The notes beneath the pieces are model-generated. The model searched no databases. It was given only the letters and a program-made list of their open reading frames with translations, and was not told the origin of the DNA. Positions 3,973 to 56,855 of a stretch of DNA of 64,000 nucleotides are shown piece after piece. Both the position numbers and the translations under genes were made by a program. Numbering within the stretch: the first letter of the stretch is position 1; the number at the start of each line of letters is the position of its first letter. Source of the DNA: Polychytrium aggregatum (taxonomy: Eukaryota > Chytridiomycota > Chytridiomycetes > Polychytriales); NCBI RefSeq assembly GCF_025602895.1, contig NW_026516238.1, forward strand, positions 124,001 to 188,000, given 5' to 3'.

Positions 3973-4372
3973 CAGTCTATCGAGAAAGAAACGGGACAGT
4001 CACTTTCTGGCTTCAGATGTCTGAAACCAGCTGACTGACTGTAGGCCCCAGTGAGCAAGCCGTGAGATTGTTTCCCGTCCTGGTTGGCAATCGAGTGGTT
4101 TTGGTTGGTTTGGGAAGCACAGTCTTGAATACACCCGGCCGATCTCCTGTGGCGATGATCGACTGGCATGCCGAGATCATGTTCCTTGAGGCATTGATGT
4201 CTCGATCCCACAGCGTATGGCAGCTTGCACAGCTCCGGACAAAGTGTGGGTTCTCGATATCAAGATGCTGTGCTTGGCCATGAATGCGATGAGTGGGTGT
4301 GTATTCAGGTTCCAGAAAAAAACACAGTCATGGCCCAAAACGGGGGTGTCCCATTTCATTTTGGAAACGCTG
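3973..4372 (-). mobile_element. 400-bp MITE of the Tc1/mariner-Fanzor family, TIR to TIR, flanked by TA
   Basis: The element starts at 3973 (CAGTCTATCGAGAAAGAAAC..., 28 bp) and ends at 4372 with an inverted counterpart (4345-4372, core GGTGTCCCAT). TA lies on both sides (3971-3972 and 4373-4374). Both ends align with the TIRs of the full element at 38305-42043, and the left-end similarity extends beyond the TIR to a GTTTT...CCAT stretch. Read on the minus strand, the interior holds the 3' end of a Fanzor gene: the zinc-ribbon and RuvC-III piece FVRSCASCH...WDRDIN, followed by ARNMIS, with the downstream region up to the TIR. There is no transposase. A near-perfect hairpin sits at 4007-4030 next to the right TIR. 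It is best read as a non-autonomous deletion derivative that kept the right end. Confidence 0.8.
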
Positions 4373-16208: not shown

Positions 16209-16567
16209 ACTGTGGTTTTGTTCTGGAACCCGAATACACGCCCACTCATTGCATTCATGGCCAAGCACAGCACCATCTTGATATCGAGAACCCACACTTT
16301 GTCCGGAGCTGTGCAAGCTGCCATACGCTGTGGGATCGAGACATCAATGCAGCCAGGAACATGATCTCGGCATGCCAGTCGATCATCGCCACAGGAGATC
16401 GACCGAGTGTATTCAAGACCATGCTTCCCAAACCAACCAAAACCACTCGATTGCCAACCAGGACGGGAAACAATCTCACGGCTTGCCCGCTGGGCCTACA
16501 GTCAGTCAGCGGGGTTCAGATATCCGAAGCCAGAAAGTGACTGTCCCGTTTCTTTCTCGATAGACTG
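16209..16567 (+). mobile_element. Truncated right end of a Tc1/mariner-Fanzor element
   Basis: Inverted relative to the MITE at 3973-4372 and highly similar to it. It ends in the same 28-bp right TIR (16540-16567, ACTGTCCCGTTTC...) followed by TA. Read forward it encodes a Fanzor C-terminus: FVRSCASCHTLWDRDINAAR, then NMISACQSIIATGDRPSVFK, up to a stop just before the TIR. Upstream of 16209 similarity stops and no left TIR is seen. It is therefore a 5'-truncated copy of a relative, with a longer C-terminal tail than the full Fanzor at 39573. Confidence 0.78.
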
Positions 16568-20000: not shown

Positions 20001-23000
20001 GCCCCAATACCCACCTTGGCCCGTCGCCATTCCTCGTCTTTCTGCTTGAGTCGCTTGAGCACAATCGGAATCGCCACCGAGGGATTGTTGTGGATGGCGT
20101 TGATGATCTCCTCGCCACGATCCTTGTCATAGATCTTGCGGATCACACGCTTGTATATCTTTGACGAGGAGTCGGATTCTGCGGCAGCACCAAGGGAGCC
20201 AGGAAGCGAGATCAGCATTCGCCGGCCACGGGACGGCTTGGCATCTGTCTGGCCCCATCTCTGTGGCATCATCGCTGCTTACCACTCGTCAAGCCTTCCC
20301 GATACTTTAGCTTGGATCTCTCCTCCGGACTCATGGCCTGCATCTTCTCGTTGATTTGCGAGAGCAGCGTGATGGTCCACAGGTTGGCCTCGATGTTCAT
20401 GTCGTACTCGTATCGCTGCTCCTCGTTCTGGTACAGATTCTCCTCAAAGATGGTCTTCTTGGACGACACAAAGCCATTCTCCGAGTGGAACACTGGGTGG
20501 GAGACCCAGTAGGTGTTGAGGACCTCCTTGCCGAGGGCGTCGCGACCAGAGAACGTGGCTCCGATCATCTGGTCAAGAGTCCCGAGCGGGTGAGAGGCGG
20601 CACCAGCGCAGAGGACGGGGTCAATGACGGGTCGATGACGGGGATCGCAGAAACAGGCCCGGCGACTGATATACCGGAGCCAGACGCCGATCGAATCCAC
20701 TTCACACCAGCAGCGCCAAAAGCGGGCGGCACGAGAATACCTACACTGGGAGGCACGTAGTGATAGCTGTGGCCCGACAAACGCATCTTCTGATGGTCGT
20801 ACTCGGGTTTCTCATATTGGTCGATGCGCTCGCGGTGCTCTCTGTCGGTGAGTGGGATATTGACTGGAGGCAATGGTGGCCCGCAGTGAGTTCTACATCC
20901 ACACATCCACACATCCACACATCCACACATCCACACATCCACACATCCACACATCCACACATCCACACATCCACACATCCACACATCCACACATCCACAC
21001 ATCCACATCCACATCCACACATCCACACATCCACACATCCACACATCCACACATCCACACATCCACACATCCACACATCCACACCCACTTACAGATCATG
21101 TCGTCGTCGTCGCACTTCATGAACTTCTTGAACCAGTCCAGCAGCTCCGAGTTCTTGCCGAGGAACGGCTCCACCCGCTCGACCAGGGTCCGCGCATCAA
21201 TCAGCTCGTTGCTGAACAGATTGAGCACCTTGAGGAACTCGTCGTACGTTCGCTTGGACGCGATCGCCTTCTTGCACTTCTCAAAGAACTCGAGCTCTTC
21301 GTAGGTTGTGGTTGTCGATGCTGCTGCCGACGCCGATGCCGCCGGAGTCTGGCTCGGACCAGCCCCGCCGCGCTGGCCGAATCCCTGCTGCGACTGAGCC
21401 ATTGGGCTCGCTGCTTGGATGCTGGTGATCTTTTGCTTCTTGCTTCTGGGCGTGCCTCCTCCACCGAGCCCGCCGCTGGACGCTGCGGTGACCATTCCGC
21501 CTGGAAGGACAGCCGCCGGTCCGCCAGCAGCGCCAACCAGGCCATCGGGTGCAATCGGCGCTGCACCCGTCGCTGGCTGGGTCGACGAGGGCTGGGTGCG
21601 CTTCTTTGGGGTCTTGTTCAAGGCAGAAGATTGTGGACCGAGGGAGCTGCTGCGGCCCAGCTCGACCGGATAGCCTGCTCCTGAGGATCCTGGTCGGCCA
21701 CAGTCCGTTCCGTGTGAGAGCATGCGATGAGCCCGCACCACAGATGATTGGGCGTGCCATCGAGATGCGTTCAGGTGGCAAGGAGGTACTTCAGTCAGTG
21801 ATTCTTGTGCTCGCCACTGCCAAAGGCGCACGGGGGATCGCTCACGACCGATCACTCACCGGCCACAGCCCTCGACAGCACCGGCCACAGTTGCTATCAT
21901 AGCATCGGTTCAACGATGCGGCCACCCGACCACCCGACCACCCGGCACAATCGGCATCCACTGTCGCATGCGTACCTGGTCCAGAACCACCCGGGAGCCC
22001 CTGTCCACCACCAGCGCCTTGCGACTGGCTGTTGTCGGGGAGGAACTGCTTGAACTCGTCCAGCAGATCGGGGTTGTGGCGGAAGAGGACCTGGACTTGG
22101 GCATAGACCTCTTGGATCGGCCGCTGCTCCTTCTGGTAGGTCTGGAGGATTTCGAGGAACTGGCGGTAGATGTCGGGCTCGGAGGCAAAGCGGTTCTGTG
22201 GACAGCAGCACGCCGATGATTCAGGCGTGGGATTGAGGGTGAGTTGCCCTGCGACGAAGAAGCAGTCGACGGACCGACCAACAGCCGACCTGCGAGCAAA
22301 CTGCCGAGCCTGCCACCACCCCGATGTCCACCCCTCGCCAGTGTCCAGCCAGCCTGCAGCCCCACACAAACCTTGATCTTGTTGACGTAGTTGATGGCAT
22401 GGCCAAACTCGACTGGCGGCCGGCGACTGTCGCCATTGGGCGGTTCGGCCGGGCCCGATGGGCGCATTGCGCTGCCGCCAGGGGCCGCACCCGGTCCTCC
22501 TCGCGCCGATGCGCTGCCGAGATGCGGTGACTGGCCCGGAGCGCCGGCCGGATGGGCTGGACCGATGTAGCCCGACGACAAGGCCGCCGAGCCAATGTGG
22601 GCTGCAGTGGCGTGGTCCGGATGTGGTGGGATCGGCGATGGGTAGTAGCCCGATCCGCCAGGACGGGACTGGCCGTAGTAGCCAGCGCCAGACGAGCCGG
22701 CCGAGCCTGGAGCCATCGGCGGACCACCTGGGCCGATCCCGACCCCCATGCCAGGGCCGGCAGGGACCGAACCGGCGCCCGAGGACGAGCCTGGGCCTGG
22801 GCCTGGGCCGGGGGCCGGGAGCACCGACCCGGATGCAGAGGCGCCAGGGCCCGCTGCATTGACCGAGACACCGGTGCTGACGATCGAGACCGAGCCCGAA
22901 ATGCCTTGGATGTGATGGACATCGGCCGGGGTGGTGACGCGCACGGGATCGTGGGGGTTGCTGGTGGCCTCGATGCGGTATCCCGGTGGGAGGAAGGTGT

Positions 23001-38112: not shown

Positions 38113-38304
38113 TTCGCCGAACTGACTCTCCAGGACGCCTCTGGAGCAACCCACATCATCCGAGGCAGAGACTCGCTTTTTGCCGAGCGGCGCTGATCGT
38201 TAGCGGTCGATCTGCTTTCCAAAATTGTATTGGCCATGAACCCTTGACGGCAAGTTCTTGGGCAGGACGAAACCCCGAATACATCATGGCCTCGGTCTAT
38301 ATTA

Positions 38305-38332
38305 CAGGCAATCCAATAAAAAACGGGACACC
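38305..38332 (+). repeat. Left terminal inverted repeat of the Fanzor transposon
   Basis: 28 bp beginning CAGGCAATCC and ending ACGGGACACC. It matches the right end in the inner 14 bases and is preceded by TA. Confidence 0.9.
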
Positions 38333-38388
38333 CGGGTTTTTGACCATTCATCGAATATTTTGTTACCCAATGTTATCGCGCGCTGGCC

Positions 38389-39321
38389 ATGACCATTCGC
38401 CACACATCCGACTTTCGCACCGCCGCATTGCGATGCTACGCCCTCATCCATAGCCTGCGTAAGGTCGCCTCCATATTCAGTGTATCCAAGAGCACCATCC
38501 ATCGATGGCACCGAGGATGCAAGCTGGATGACCCATCCCGGGTCCCAGCTCGCAGATCCACTTTCTTCGAGCAGGCATGTCCAGTCATTCGCACCCTGAT
38601 TGAACAGGACCCGTTCCAGACTGGTCCTGTGTTGCGGTGCAAGCTCGAGTCCATCCTCCAGAGGAAAGTATCACTCTCACTCTGCCACACTGCCATCCAC
38701 CGAGCAGGTCTCTCACACAAGAGGGCAACACACCTCTACAAGTCCAAGCGACTGGATGAGCGAGTGGCACAGTTCAGGGACCAGGCCCGCTCCATCGACC
38801 CACGACGGCTCGTTTTTGTCGACGAGACAGGGATCAGGAAATCCATTTTCCCTCTCTACGGATACTCGTCGAAGGGTGCTCCGCTTCGCCAGCGCAATCA
38901 CATGAAACACAAGTCTGTCTCGGCTGCATTTGCCATCAACCACTCTGGTGTGCTGCATCGCATGTACATCCCCACATCATTCAAGACACACTCGATGGTC
39001 GAGTTCTTTGAGCGAGCGAGCTTCCCAGACGACTCTGTGATTGTGATGGACAATGTCAGCATGCACAAGACAATGCCTGTCCTGGACTGCATCGAGCGCC
39101 GAGGATGGTCAGTGATCTTCACCCCACCTGCTTCACCCGACTTCAATCCCATCGAGAACTTCTTTGGGATTGTGAAGCACCAGTACAGGAAGGTGGCAGC
39201 GCTGAATGCGTCCGAGGGGTTCAAGATCGGGATGGTGACCCTGTTTGAGTCTGCCGTTCGGAGGGTGCTTCCAGATGTCTTCCCACGGCTGATTGAGCGA
39301 GCGATGCGCTTCTGGGGTTGA
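38389..39321 (+). CDS. Tc1/mariner-IS630 superfamily transposase (DD34E)
   Basis: Cuts and pastes the element at TA sites. One uninterrupted 310-aa frame, no introns. An N-terminal helix-turn-helix (about 24-43, KVASIFSVSKSTIHRWHRG) should bind the TIRs. The catalytic triad is seen as D145 (LVFVDETGI), D221 (VIVMDNVSMHK) and E256 (PPASPDFNPIENFFG); 34 residues separate the last two. The C-terminal helices end AMRFWG. The frame is intact, so this copy may be active or only recently inactive. The start ATG lies 57 bp inside the left TIR. Confidence 0.93.
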   Translation: MTIRHTSDFRTAALRCYALIHSLRKVASIFSVSKSTIHRWHRGCKLDDPSRVPARRSTFFEQACPVIRTLIEQDPFQTGPVLRCKLESILQRKVSLSLCHTAIHRAGLSHKRATHLYKSKRLDERVAQFRDQARSIDPRRLVFVDETGIRKSIFPLYGYSSKGAPLRQRNHMKHKSVSAAFAINHSGVLHRMYIPTSFKTHSMVEFFERASFPDDSVIVMDNVSMHKTMPVLDCIERRGWSVIFTPPASPDFNPIENFFGIVKHQYRKVAALNASEGFKIGMVTLFESAVRRVLPDVFPRLIERAMRFWG

Positions 39322-39438
39322 GTTCCCTCCAATCAAGCCGCCATTTTCACGCCCAAATCCCTGGCTTGAACCTCTCGGCGATTTTTGAACAGGGTCACTT
39401 CCCCAACCAGCCCGCGCAGACGGGCTCCTGCTCTCGGG

Positions 39439-39444
39439 TATAAA
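39439..39444 (+). promoter_or_regulatory. TATA box candidate for the Fanzor gene
   Basis: TATAAA about 130 bp upstream of the Fanzor ATG, in the 251-bp gap after the transposase stop. A short palindrome (AGCCCG at 39409-39414, CGGGCT at 39421-39426) sits just upstream. Confidence 0.45.
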
Positions 39445-39572
39445 TGCCACACCTTCGTCCTGCTGCTTTCTTCCCTCATCTCGCCTTGATCTGATCATCG
39501 CGCCATTGTACGATAAAAAAAGTCTCTGCTCTGACCAGTACCACTGGCAGGCATCCAGCATCCTCTGCCCCC

Positions 39573-41945
39573 ATGCCTCCGAAGCGCAAGGGTACCGGTG
39601 ATGGCCAGCCTCGGCCACCCAGGCCCAAGAAAGCCAAGTCACAGTCGGAGCCTGTCTCTGGTTCGTCTTCTGATCCCACGCATGCTTGGTCGTCTGTTGC
39701 TCCGTCGCTCACCACCACTGCTTCTGCAGATCCAATGGATGTCGATCCCACCGAGCCTGGTCCATCTACTTCCTCGAGTACTGGCAAGCGATGTCGCCAG
39801 TGCGATGGCACCGATCACGAACGTTGCAACACCAGCAAATGTCCAAAATACCGGCCCCTCAAGAGTTCTGTCGTCCCACTCGTGGATGGAAGGTCATCCG
39901 CCCCTCAATACAGCTGCTTCAAGCAGACGATGGATGGCTGTTGTCTCAATCCCGCTCTCCGCGACAAGATCCAGGCCACTGTCGCAGCCATGACCCAGAT
40001 CCAGTTCGAGGCATCCAGGCTGCTCAACCTGCACATCCTCCGGTGCATCGAGCAGGATCTTCCCGTCCCCGTCATCTCCAAGTCCACCCCTGCTTTCGTT
40101 CGCCAATGCTTCACGATTGTCGAGGCCGATGCCCTCTCGACGGCCAGGGATACCAAGAAATACAACGAGCATCTGGTCGCTTCCTTTCGCGACTACCAGA
40201 CCACTCGACACGCAGACCTGCCTCCGGCCCCTCGTCTGCCTGATGGTGCTCACAGTCAGCTTCTCACACTGGCTGTCAACGCCTATGCCACCAACTGCAC
40301 CACCCACCTCAACCTGGCATACTGGCGACTCCTTCGCCGCTTCTGTGCTGCCGTCTTCCCAGCCAACAAGCATAAGCACGAAGCCATCGAGGCCTGTCTC
40401 GAGCTCTTCGAGAAACCAGGGCAGACTCCACCCAAGGCCGATCTCGAGTTCCTCTATCCCGACTTGGGCCACATCCTGGACGAGTTTCGGTACAGCAGCG
40501 ACCAGGACCGCTTCCGGGCCCTCCACCGCCTCTCACACCATGTGGGAATCCTCGCCCGAGACAAGATGGTCGACGATGTCCACAAGTGGATCGACTGTGA
40601 CATGCCCGCCCTCCGAGTCACCGAGCTGCAGCGCCAGGCCAAGCTGGACGAGCTCACTGCTCGAGGCATTCCCTCCGACGACAAGAGGCTCACCACGGCC
40701 AAGTCTGAGCTCGGCACCACCAAGTCCAAGATCAACAAGCTGGCATCCAGACTCAAGTGGGCCCTCAAGCAGCTCGCCGTCGACACTCCTCCGGCCGTGT
40801 GCACGATAGTTCCTCCATGCACTGCAAGGGCCAAGTATGTCAAGATCGACACGGTCACTCTTTGGCAACTCCTGGGTCCAAAGAAGCGCCTTGGACTCAC
40901 CAGGGACAAGCTCAAGGAAGAAGGTGAGGACGGTGTCAACAACCAGGATCGTCTCTGGCGCAGTTGCTTCAAGCTGCGTAGTTCCCTCTTCCGTGACCGG
41001 GATATCAATCACAAGCTGTTCAACTACGAGATCAGCACCGATGGCATTGGATGCACCATCGGTCTCGTCAAGTTTCTGCCTCGAACCGATCACACCGAGA
41101 CTTCCGAGCCTCCTCCGACTGCCGAGCAGCGCATCCAGGAGCACATCGGCAGCCCAGACCCCGACAAGACCACTTGGATTGGCATCGATCCTGGAGTCGG
41201 CTCCATCTTCACGGCGGTCATCCAAGCACCGGGCCACCGAGACGAGGTGGTCTCATTCTCCAATGGCCACTACCAGCATATGTGTGGCCATACGTCCAAC
41301 ACCGACTGACACAACGCCAAGAAGAAGCAGCTCGGCATCGAGACCTGGATGTCGTCCACCCCCTCGCCCAAGGTGCAGTCCTCGGAGGCCTTCAAGGTCC
41401 ATCTCACCCATGTCCTGCGACCGGAGCTGCGAGTGCAGCTCGACTTCCACCTTGGCAAGAAGGCTCGTCACCATCGATTCACGGGCCACAAGAGGCGCCA
41501 AGTGGCCGTCGACAGGATGTGCAAGGCCGTCCTGAAGCACGCCCCGATACGGACCGATGTGGTGATCGCCTTTGGCAATGCGTCATGGCGTCAAGGCAAG
41601 GGCTATGCATCCAGCCCTCGGAGGCAGCGATTTGCTCAGTACTTTGAGCAATTCGAGCACCACCGACGCCGTCCCAATCACCCTCATGGAAGCGTCAAGG
41701 TGGCCTCGACGAACGAGTTCAACACCTCGCAAGTGTGCTCCAAGTGCCTGGAGCCAGTTCGGTTGGAAGGACTCGATGCGCCCAGTGTTGCGAATTCCCA
41801 CTTTGTCAGGAGCTGCAAGAATCCCAGCTGCCGGACAGTGTGGAATCGCGACGTCAATGCGGCGCGCAACATGATCACGGTGTGCAGGTCGATTGTGGAG
41901 ATCGGAGAGCGACCGGTGGTCTTCACTCGGAGGCTGCCAAAGTGA
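39573..41945 (+). CDS. Fanzor (TnpB-like RNA-guided endonuclease), broken by one in-frame TGA
   Basis: Eukaryotic TnpB relative, expected to cut DNA guided by an RNA from the element's right end. The frame would be 790 codons but has a single TGA at codon 579 (41307-41309); reading continues open on both sides. The N-terminus MPPKRKGTGDGQPRPPRPKK looks like a nuclear localisation signal. A Cys/His cluster follows (CRQCDGTDHERCNTSKC). RuvC-I is WIGIDPGVGSIFTAV (Asp at 539). The RuvC-II position reads VVIAFGNASWRQGKG, with Asn instead of Glu, and a Glu is found later in STNEFNTSQ. The zinc ribbon is CSKC...CKNPSC, and RuvC-III is VWNRDVNAARNM. This rearranged active site is known for Fanzors. 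The TGA falls between RuvC-I and RuvC-II, so a truncated product would be inactive. Confidence 0.9.
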
Positions 41946-42043
41946 TCTGTTTTATTTCTTGTGGCTTTGCTTGACGCAAGCACAGCACATACTACCTGTT
42001 CATGGAAACGGCTGTGGTGTCCCGTTTTTTTCTGAATAAAGTG
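41946..42043 (+). ncRNA. Candidate guide (omega) RNA scaffold region at the element right end
   Basis: 98 nt from the Fanzor stop to the end of the right TIR. In TnpB and Fanzor elements the guide RNA scaffold overlaps the ORF 3' end and right end, with the guide lying in the flank. A TGCTTG-ACG-CAAGCA hairpin sits at 41968-41982 and is kept in the deleted copy at 56829-56843. The TIR also contains AATAAA (42035-42040), a possible poly(A) signal. The boundaries are a guess. Confidence 0.35.
42016..42043 (-). repeat. Right terminal inverted repeat of the Fanzor transposon
   Basis: 28 bp, read inward as CACTTTATTC...ACGGGACACC, followed outside by TA (42044-42045). Confidence 0.9.
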
Positions 42044-42460
42044 TAGCGTGGCGAGCTCAGCTTCAGGGAATGGCATCGGCGAGTGACGATGCCCCGAGAT
42101 GATCATGGATGCGGTCAGTGCCCGCGGCTCAGGGCTCCAAAAAGCCACCATTGGAGACTAGGGCTCGGAGGTGGATGGCCTGTTTCGCCATCTCAGCTCG
42201 ATCTGTGCACAGCTGCTCTCGAGCTTGATTGGAGCGATGAATGTCGTCGGGTGCACAATCGACGACTCTTCCAGGCCGGCAGGTCCGCGATGCCCAGCGC
42301 CGTCTCAGCACCAAATCTGTCTTTCTGCGGCGCCAACATTGCAGGGCCCGCCAAGCTCCTCGAGCCTGCAAGTGCCACTTGTACTGGAATCACGGCCATG
42401 AGCATCTACAGCGGCAAGTACCTCGCCTCTGCTGTGGGTTGCTGAGCTGGACTCCCACGC

Positions 42461-56548: not shown

Positions 56549-56855
56549 TCGTGTATCCAATAAAAAACGGGACACCCGTACTTTTGACCATCGAACGAAT
56601 ATTCAGTTACCCAATGTTATCGCGCGCTGGCCATGACCATTCTGTGATGCGGTGCAACACTCTCATCCATAGCCTGCGCAAGGTTGCCTCCATATTCAGT
56701 GTGTCCAAGAGTACCATCCATCGCTGGCACTCCGAGACCAGTGTGCAGGTCGATTGTGGAGACCGGAGAGCGACCGGCGGTGTTCACTCGGAGGCTGCCA
56801 AAGTGATATGTTATATTCCTTATGGCTTTGCTTGACGCAAGCACATCACATTCCA
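56549..56855 (+). mobile_element. Internally deleted derivative of the Tc1/mariner-Fanzor transposon
   Basis: It starts with a left TIR (56549-56576) after TA at 56547-56548. It follows the full element through the first ~40 codons of the transposase (LRKVASIFSVSKSTIHRWH), then jumps within a few bases to the last ~20 codons of the Fanzor and the 3' hairpin (56829-56843). Relative to the full copy about 3.4 kb is missing. Similarity ends soon after the hairpin and no right TIR is seen, so the right end is also lost. It lies between the two TLC paralogs. Confidence 0.85.

Follow-up and report, generated by a model that had tools for sequence, protein, structure and literature searches.

The locus and its transposase

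The stretch of the Polychytrium aggregatum genome analyzed here (64,000 nt; hereafter, the window) belongs to contig G000:C290 of a 64.7-Mb assembly of 418 contigs and contains a 3,739-bp transposon that carries both a transposase gene and a gene for a Fanzor, a putative RNA-guided nuclease. The element, a member of what we call family A, spans positions 38305-42043: its first letters, CAGGCAATCCAATAAAAAACGGGACACC, directly follow a TA at 38303-38304, and its last letters, ...TCTGAATAAAGTG, directly precede another TA at 42044-42045 (C numbers denote contigs, and L numbers denote copies or loci). An earlier note on this DNA had described a complete Tc1/mariner (IS630-like) transposon with its own transposase and a Fanzor gene, and this description stands: the boundaries, the TA on both sides and the two genes are all present. 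The 28-bp terminal inverted repeats that it reported are present as well, but they do not match as cleanly as it had claimed: of the 28 positions, 21 agree, namely, all of the inner 15 and 6 of the outer 13, so that the 7 mismatches are confined to the outer part. The terminal repeats are common to the 21 compared copies, with small variants in the left end of L017 and the right ends of L020 and L023. In a set of 29 independent insertions (drawn from 39 copies after removal of C290:85 and C342, which did not fit the end patterns, and of 8 copies whose right flank was already represented), TA flanks the element on the left in all 29 and on the right in 27.

The transposase frame, located on the forward strand, is open over its entire length of 310 codons, and its catalytic residues can be assigned, with a spacing of 34 between the last two (DD34E). 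Profile searches yielded matches to DDE_3 (E=1.5e-22) and to the NCBIfam IS630 family (120.1 bits against a cut-off of 100), in agreement with the intact DD34E transposase that had been proposed from the letters. Among the distinct sequenced copies of the element (26 of 27, because L025, a near-duplicate that differs from L022 by one base, does not enter the diversity and selection counts), this frame is open in 19 and broken in 7. Separately, the match to the transposase ends at codon 261-263 in 30 of 129 rows; these 30 have open frames of 278-331 amino acids and represent a subfamily, itself present in multiple copies, in which the end of the transposase is altered.

The Fanzor protein

The Fanzor gene is less well preserved at this locus. 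Its frame starts at 39573 and continues to 41945, but, in the window copy, it is interrupted by a TGA at 41307-41309, that is, at codon 579 of 790; a TnpB/Fanzor frame is indeed part of the unit, as the earlier note had it, but in this copy the frame is not intact. The catalytic glutamate, the last aspartate and the zinc finger are all encoded downstream of the premature stop, and because of the stop at codon 579, the window copy cannot make the full predicted nuclease. The C-terminal piece matches Cas12f1-like_TNB (E=4.3e-10).

In the intact copy L011, Fanzor contains DPG at position 539, glutamate 715 exactly six residues before CxxC, and aspartate 760 within NRD; all three acidic residues (D539, E715 and D760) are kept in 27 of the 27 copies. 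The combination of DPG with the alternative glutamate is described as a molecular fingerprint of Fanzors (PMC10711439). The protein also fits the Bao-Jurka motif, D-X(125,275)-[TS][TS]-X-X-C4-X-RD, with the pattern tested up to the first CxxC, the second pair being Cx4C and RD occupying positions 759-760. Intact 790-residue frames were found in 19 of 21 copies in one comparison and in 22 of the 26 distinct sequenced copies, the remaining 4 being broken; in a genome search with the intact Fanzor, 49 of the 57 best-scored matches lack stops, a proportion biased to intact frames, given that only the best matches were considered. A sequence search of the PDB produced sub-threshold matches only, one of these to SpuFz1 (8gkh) over 49 C-terminal residues (E 0.63), and the match to NCBIfam guided_TnpB (4.7e-06) is under the cut-off of that profile. 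The label 'Fanzor1' is thus used here provisionally, on the basis of the host transposon type together with the sub-threshold C-terminal match to 8gkh. Six peptide patterns run against viral contigs gave no match to viral relatives.

Copies, ghosts and a second family

A copy search, the counts from which are lower bounds, located family A in at least 39 places including the window, in 33 of them nearly at full length. Exact left ends number 198 genome-wide (190 with TTA and 8 with VTA), with the caveat that sites present on two haplotypes count twice, and a control with the reversed pattern gave 0; the shared ends are, therefore, far beyond chance. On the right, 240 ends fit a 16-base pattern (the element end plus T) followed by an open flank, where the pattern required the following T and a non-G base at the last place. 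Most of the sites are counted once because 89 of the first 100 right ends listed have distinct flanks. Copies with matching ends thus exist elsewhere in the genome; they are approximately 96% identical and are not the near-identical copies that, according to the earlier note, would support recent activity. Judged by these sequences, the window element is one copy of a large family of autonomous IS630/Tc1/mariner transposons that carry a putative Fanzor1-type RNA-guided nuclease.

Not all members of the family are long. Among the left ends listed on C1-C179, 49 of 88 pair with a listed right end, 38 at a distance of 3.1-3.74 kb, 3 at about 1.1 kb and 8 at 279-381 bp. The short family-A derivatives that retain the right end, typically of about 308 bp, are referred to here as ghosts. 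The nine derivatives that we read, namely, eight family-A ghosts of 279-309 bp and one derivative of 1,110 bp, all retain about 97 bp or more on the left and the terminal 164 bp or more on the right. A second Fanzor family, family B, was matched in at least 40 places genome-wide, and one family-A insertion (L011/L014) sits within a family-B copy. Derivatives of both families also occur in the window outside the element (Table 1).

Inverted pairs of family-B left ends about 270 bp apart were observed at C223:320672/320919, C223:766218/766462 and C325:15530/15774, where one of the two ends is preceded by TTA and the opposite one by GTA. Possibly, these are fold-back elements with two left ends.

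Table 1. Features of the family-A element and related sequences in the window
Positions	Strand	Feature	Basis
38301..38304	+	ATTA, left flank, the last two bases being the duplicated target TA; WTTA is the predicted target-adjacent motif of Fanzor	base counts at left ends
38305..38332	+	left terminal inverted repeat, 28 bp	21/28 vs right end, inner 15 identical
38389..39321	+	DD34E transposase, 310 aa (amino acids), intact	open frame, DDE_3, D145/D221/E256, NCBIfam IS630
39573..41309	+	Fanzor N-terminal part, 578 codons to the premature stop; basic start MPPKRK; DPG aspartate D539	
41310..41945	+	Fanzor C-terminal part, same frame, beyond the premature stop: alternative Glu E715, CxxC/Cx4C zinc finger, D760	
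41880..42043	+	right-end region, candidate guide-RNA scaffold, overlaps the end of the Fanzor frame	kept by nine short derivatives
42016..42043	-	right terminal inverted repeat	21/28 vs left end
42044..42045	+	right TA duplication; a guide would come from the sequence starting here	TA in 27/29 independent right flanks
56550..56851	+	degenerate short family-A derivative, left part and right-end region, right terminus lost (last 53 bp), inner part kept	
3973..4372	-	family-B ghost, TTA/CAGCGTTTCC...GACTG/TA, keeps about 52 codons of the Fanzor end and the right end	
16241..16567	+	second family-B ghost, right end clear, left end degenerate	

A one-sided target rule

The sequences next to the insertions follow a rule that applies to one side only. 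The base that precedes the left TA (position -3) is T at 190 of the 198 exact left ends; in the rest of the window, the background frequency of T before TA is 14%. Among the 29 independent insertions, position -3 is T in 26, and position -4 is A in 14, T in 8, G in 5 and C in 2 (A or T in 22 of 29), which gives the consensus WTTA. On the right side, 85 of the 89 distinct listed flanks have A after the T of the pattern, that is, TA, and the base that follows this TA (position +3) is A in 16 of these 85, which is the background level (p 0.21). The asymmetry between the left and the right is highly significant (Fisher p 9e-41), also when only the 29 independent insertions are compared (2e-7). A longer target duplication (TTA) on both sides was considered and rejected: the right flank starts with TA, without any preference at the next base. 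TTA precedes 7 of the 8 short ghosts that we read, but 7 of the 8 were drawn from the TTA list, so that this count has no bearing on whether the transposase alone could account for the rule.

Two precedents are relevant here. The targets of Sleeping Beauty, a Tc1/mariner transposon, are reported to be symmetric at TA sites even when oriented (PMC5801840). For Spu-1, the CA that precedes the left repeat is reported to be conserved across both Fanzor loci and ghosts, and SpuFz1 has CATA as its measured motif (PMC10432273). Because Sleeping Beauty TA targets are symmetric and the left-flank CA of Spu-1 matches the measured CATA, we read WTTA as the predicted target-adjacent motif of the family-A Fanzor.

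Sequence diversity and selection

The mean diversity among the family-A copies is 0.037, and the ratio of nonsynonymous to synonymous diversity (piN/piS) is 0.22 for the transposase and 0.32 for Fanzor. When variants are divided by frequency (singletons, 2-3, and 4 or more), omega for the transposase is 0.42, 0.34 and 0.24, respectively; for Fanzor, the two classes of commoner variants give 0.26 (2-3) and 0.46 (4 or more). Among the commoner variants of Fanzor, there is 1 nonsense change against 9 expected from all variants and about 17 expected from synonymous variants. If reads were mixed during the assembly, the intact frames that enter these counts may be overstated.

Sites without empty counterparts

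We joined the two flanks of 16 and, additionally, 14 family-A sites and searched the assembly with the joined sequences. No spanning match, that is, no empty site that would directly prove the TA duplication, was found for these 30 sites, 29 of which are informative (for the site on C365, no row was listed, its own flanks included). The search scores the best 40 candidates, and any match across the junction would be expected to rank above the listed matches to one flank. For 3 family-B sites examined in the same manner, no empty site was detected either. By our reading of the rows, a second place with the same flank, broken at the position of the element, exists for 21 of the 30 sites (12 of 16 and 9 of 14). 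Furthermore, the closest non-allelic pair among 21 copies is 97.3% identical. The recent movement of the element suggested in the earlier note was, accordingly, rejected as unsupported on both counts. The absent empty sites speak against such movement and fit old, fixed insertions, as well as efficient refilling.

Same-site copies that differ

Ten pairs of loci share both flanks and apparently occupy the same sites, but their elements are far from identical: 953 of 37,101 positions inside the element differ (2.57%), compared to 224 of 19,693 positions in the flanks, or 18 of 17,728 (about 0.1%) when the right flank of L011/L014 is set aside. This flank, in which 206 of 1,965 positions differ, holds a nested, rearranged second element. 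Nine of the ten pairs differ at 1.07-4.21% of the positions, and the tenth, L022/L025, differs by a single base. For 758 of the 953 differences (summed over the pairs), both states are found in other copies, so that recent mutation, as opposed to exchange, was rejected as the source of all of these differences.

Identical blocks longer than the maximum of 476 bp simulated for independent sites occur in 2 of the nine divergent pairs (840 bp in L018/L067; 800 and 502 bp in L009/L010); the other seven contain no block beyond the simulated range. Across the 26 copies, variants more than 25 bp apart are associated no more strongly than at random, and 13,355 of 17,955 site pairs (20 copies) fail the four-gamete test. 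As a control, which is partial because it is short and more diverged, a pair of family-B ghosts shows 6 differences in 3,330 aligned positions. In L074/L075, the family-A part occupies the first 900 bp and holds 49 of the 55 differences.

One locus, L021 on C23, stands apart in that its two flanks recur on different contigs. L021 and C334:316657-320318, each with a family-A element, share the right flank and differ in the left one, and the left flank in C23 recurs on C346 and C81. Either chromosomes have exchanged sequence at the element, or the assembly was joined incorrectly there.

A proposed mechanism and its alternatives

With the parts, the ends, the one-sided rule and the past selection read from the sequence, we infer the RNA, the cutting and the repair as follows, and hold the resulting scheme as a whole to be moderately probable. 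The transposase would cut the element out and paste it at TA, while a guide RNA would be made from the right end, with the right flank as the guide. Together with this RNA, Fanzor would recognize WTTA followed by the element-free flank. It would thus cut empty sites, whether these arise by excision or lie on an allele that lacks the insertion; repair would then copy the element back from the sister or the homolog, keeping or spreading the insertion. Elements beside a usable WTTA would thereby be kept or favored, leaving the one-sided signature. The window copy, although devoid of a full Fanzor, could be served in trans because it keeps the ends, the transposase and the right-end RNA region.

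Several observations weigh against this scheme. The cysteines of the Fanzor zinc finger are lost in 3 of the 27 copies (C722 in 2 and C753 in 1), the second zinc pair is Cx4C, and the spacing of 176 between DPG and the glutamate is above the 120-160 of the published pattern (PMC10711439). Strong RNA structure and covariation were sought at the family-A right end, and neither was found: the fold, which pairs the terminal repeat with the preceding stretch, is no better than those of shuffled sequences (z -1.15), and covariation is not detectable. The two family-B right ends that were folded yielded z -0.01 and z -2.58. Family B also follows a looser target rule, with T in 36, A in 17, G in 3 and C in 2 at position -3 among the listed matches in which the other 27 bases are exact, the non-T bases being undercounted. 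Moreover, Sleeping Beauty, which has no Fanzor, shows a one-sided consensus at rare non-TA sites that is tied by its authors to unequal ends (PMC5801840). Old, fixed insertions would likewise leave no empty sites. Finally, for Fanzor singletons, omega is 0.67, and 6 of 200 are nonsense changes against 6.4 expected, which is about neutral, so that strong selection does not act on the observed copies at present. Taken with the lower values for commoner variants, this suggests past purifying selection on both proteins and, because singleton nonsense changes in Fanzor occur at an approximately neutral rate, slow decay now.

There are two other explanations to consider. The WTTA motif could stem from the transposase alone, which would read the base just outside the left TA when it cuts or captures a target, with Fanzor being a passenger that does not affect where copies persist. 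This possibility stays alive because the one-sided consensus of Sleeping Beauty at non-TA sites is linked to unequal ends, and the family-A ends, with 7 differences in the outer 13 bp, could similarly form an asymmetric complex. Nevertheless, we regard it as unlikely: at TA sites, Sleeping Beauty is symmetric, the similar one-sided rule of Spu-1 equals the measured Fanzor motif, and Fanzor shows purifying selection among the commoner variants. More plausible, albeit still well short of an even chance in our assessment, is an old, mostly immobile mariner family in which Fanzor was useful in the past, whereas the present copies reflect none of its action. The lack of empty sites, the distance of at least 2.7% between non-allelic copies (21 compared), the near-neutral rate of nonsense changes in Fanzor singletons and the broken frames (the transposase in 7 and Fanzor in 4 of the 26 distinct copies) are all compatible with such a history. 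Less easily accommodated are the frames that are still open (22 of 26 for Fanzor and 19 of 26 for the transposase) despite a mean diversity of 3.7%, and the same-site copies that differ far more than their flanks.

The latter pattern calls for either strong exchange between copies or consensus mixing in the assembly. Under the second explanation, reads from many similar copies were mixed into a mosaic consensus, so that the same-site divergence is an artifact; we give this somewhat less than an even chance. Random association beyond 25 bp is what mixing could yield, and C23, where a left flank shared with C346 and C81 is joined to a right flank shared with C334, indicates that joins at this repeat can be wrong. 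However, uniform mixing would not produce identical blocks of 840, 800 and 502 bp beside divergent ones, nor the single difference between L022 and L025, and the few differences in the family-B pair, along with the concentration of those in L074/L075 in the family-A part, also argue against it, within the limits of a partial control and with 7 of the 10 pairs lacking an excess block. One extension of the favored scheme, an extension that we consider improbable, is that excision and Fanzor cutting keep the insertions homozygous and refilled by repair from other copies, such that the approximately 200 dispersed elements would form a single recombining and selected population. This would account for different elements at alleles of the same site, functional genes at 3-4% diversity and the absent empty sites. 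Should the copy exchange be real, these sequences would preserve a natural record of gene conversion, driven by the nuclease or the transposase, throughout a transposon family.

Relation to known Fanzor and TnpB elements

Transposase and Fanzor genes within one Mariner element have been known since 2013: PUl-1 and PGv-1 (Bao and Jurka 2013) are described as combining a Mariner-like transposase with Fanzor1 in one TA-flanked element (PMC3627910). Family A resembles them, by that description, in this organization; PGv-1 differs in being single-copy and virus-borne and in carrying a third gene (PMC3627910). None of the titles and abstract beginnings covered by our literature search describes a fungal family that has both transposase and Fanzor and reaches a high copy number.

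The closest comparison in other respects is Spu-1 with its nuclease SpuFz1, a Fanzor1 of Spizellomyces punctatus, for which 42 Fanzor and 134 ghost loci are reported (Bao and Jurka 2013, Saito et al. 2023). Both families are TA-flanked with inverted repeats, have a conserved dinucleotide before the left repeat, similar C-terminal ends of Fanzor (at a sub-threshold level) and ghost loci that retain the right end, and reach copy numbers of the same order (42 and 134 loci in Spu-1; 198 exact left ends here, some of these on two haplotypes). In contrast, Spu-1 elements are described as holding no transposase, which in family A is inside the element, and the left rule is CATA in Spu-1 and WTTA here (PMC10432273). 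The Fanzor of family A consists of 790 amino acids, compared to 633 in Spu-1 (PMC3627910).

By analogy, family A would also share the logic of the IS200/IS605 elements with TnpA and TnpB, in which a transposase is paired with an RNA-guided nuclease that cuts sites lacking the element; for plasmids, spread driven by TnpB is reported (PMC11870625). A literature search limited to four terms found no work on TnpB at donor sites. The IS200/IS605 elements differ in that they are bacterial and employ another transposase chemistry, and TnpB has the canonical glutamate (PMC10711439).

The best-studied fungal case in which to ask how Fanzor serves its host transposon, Spu-1, lacks an internal transposase. 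Family A unites the mover, the nuclease, the ends, the ghosts, a predicted motif (WTTA) and about 200 candidate natural guides. Because all of these come in one family, whether Fanzor cuts the empty donor site and thereby preserves the element becomes a matter of direct experiment.

Other observations

LINE (long interspersed nuclear element) sequences were considered as a control for copy exchange, but, among 150 reverse-transcriptase rows, many with identical scores, none could be placed in a two-haplotype stretch, and this control was not used. The LINE-like reverse transcriptase genes (about 1284 amino acids, many with identical scores) are clustered within tens of kilobases on C11, C115, C173, C366, C75 and other contigs, in a centromere-like arrangement. 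In the window itself, a tandem array of 24 copies of an 8-bp unit is located at 20895-21084.

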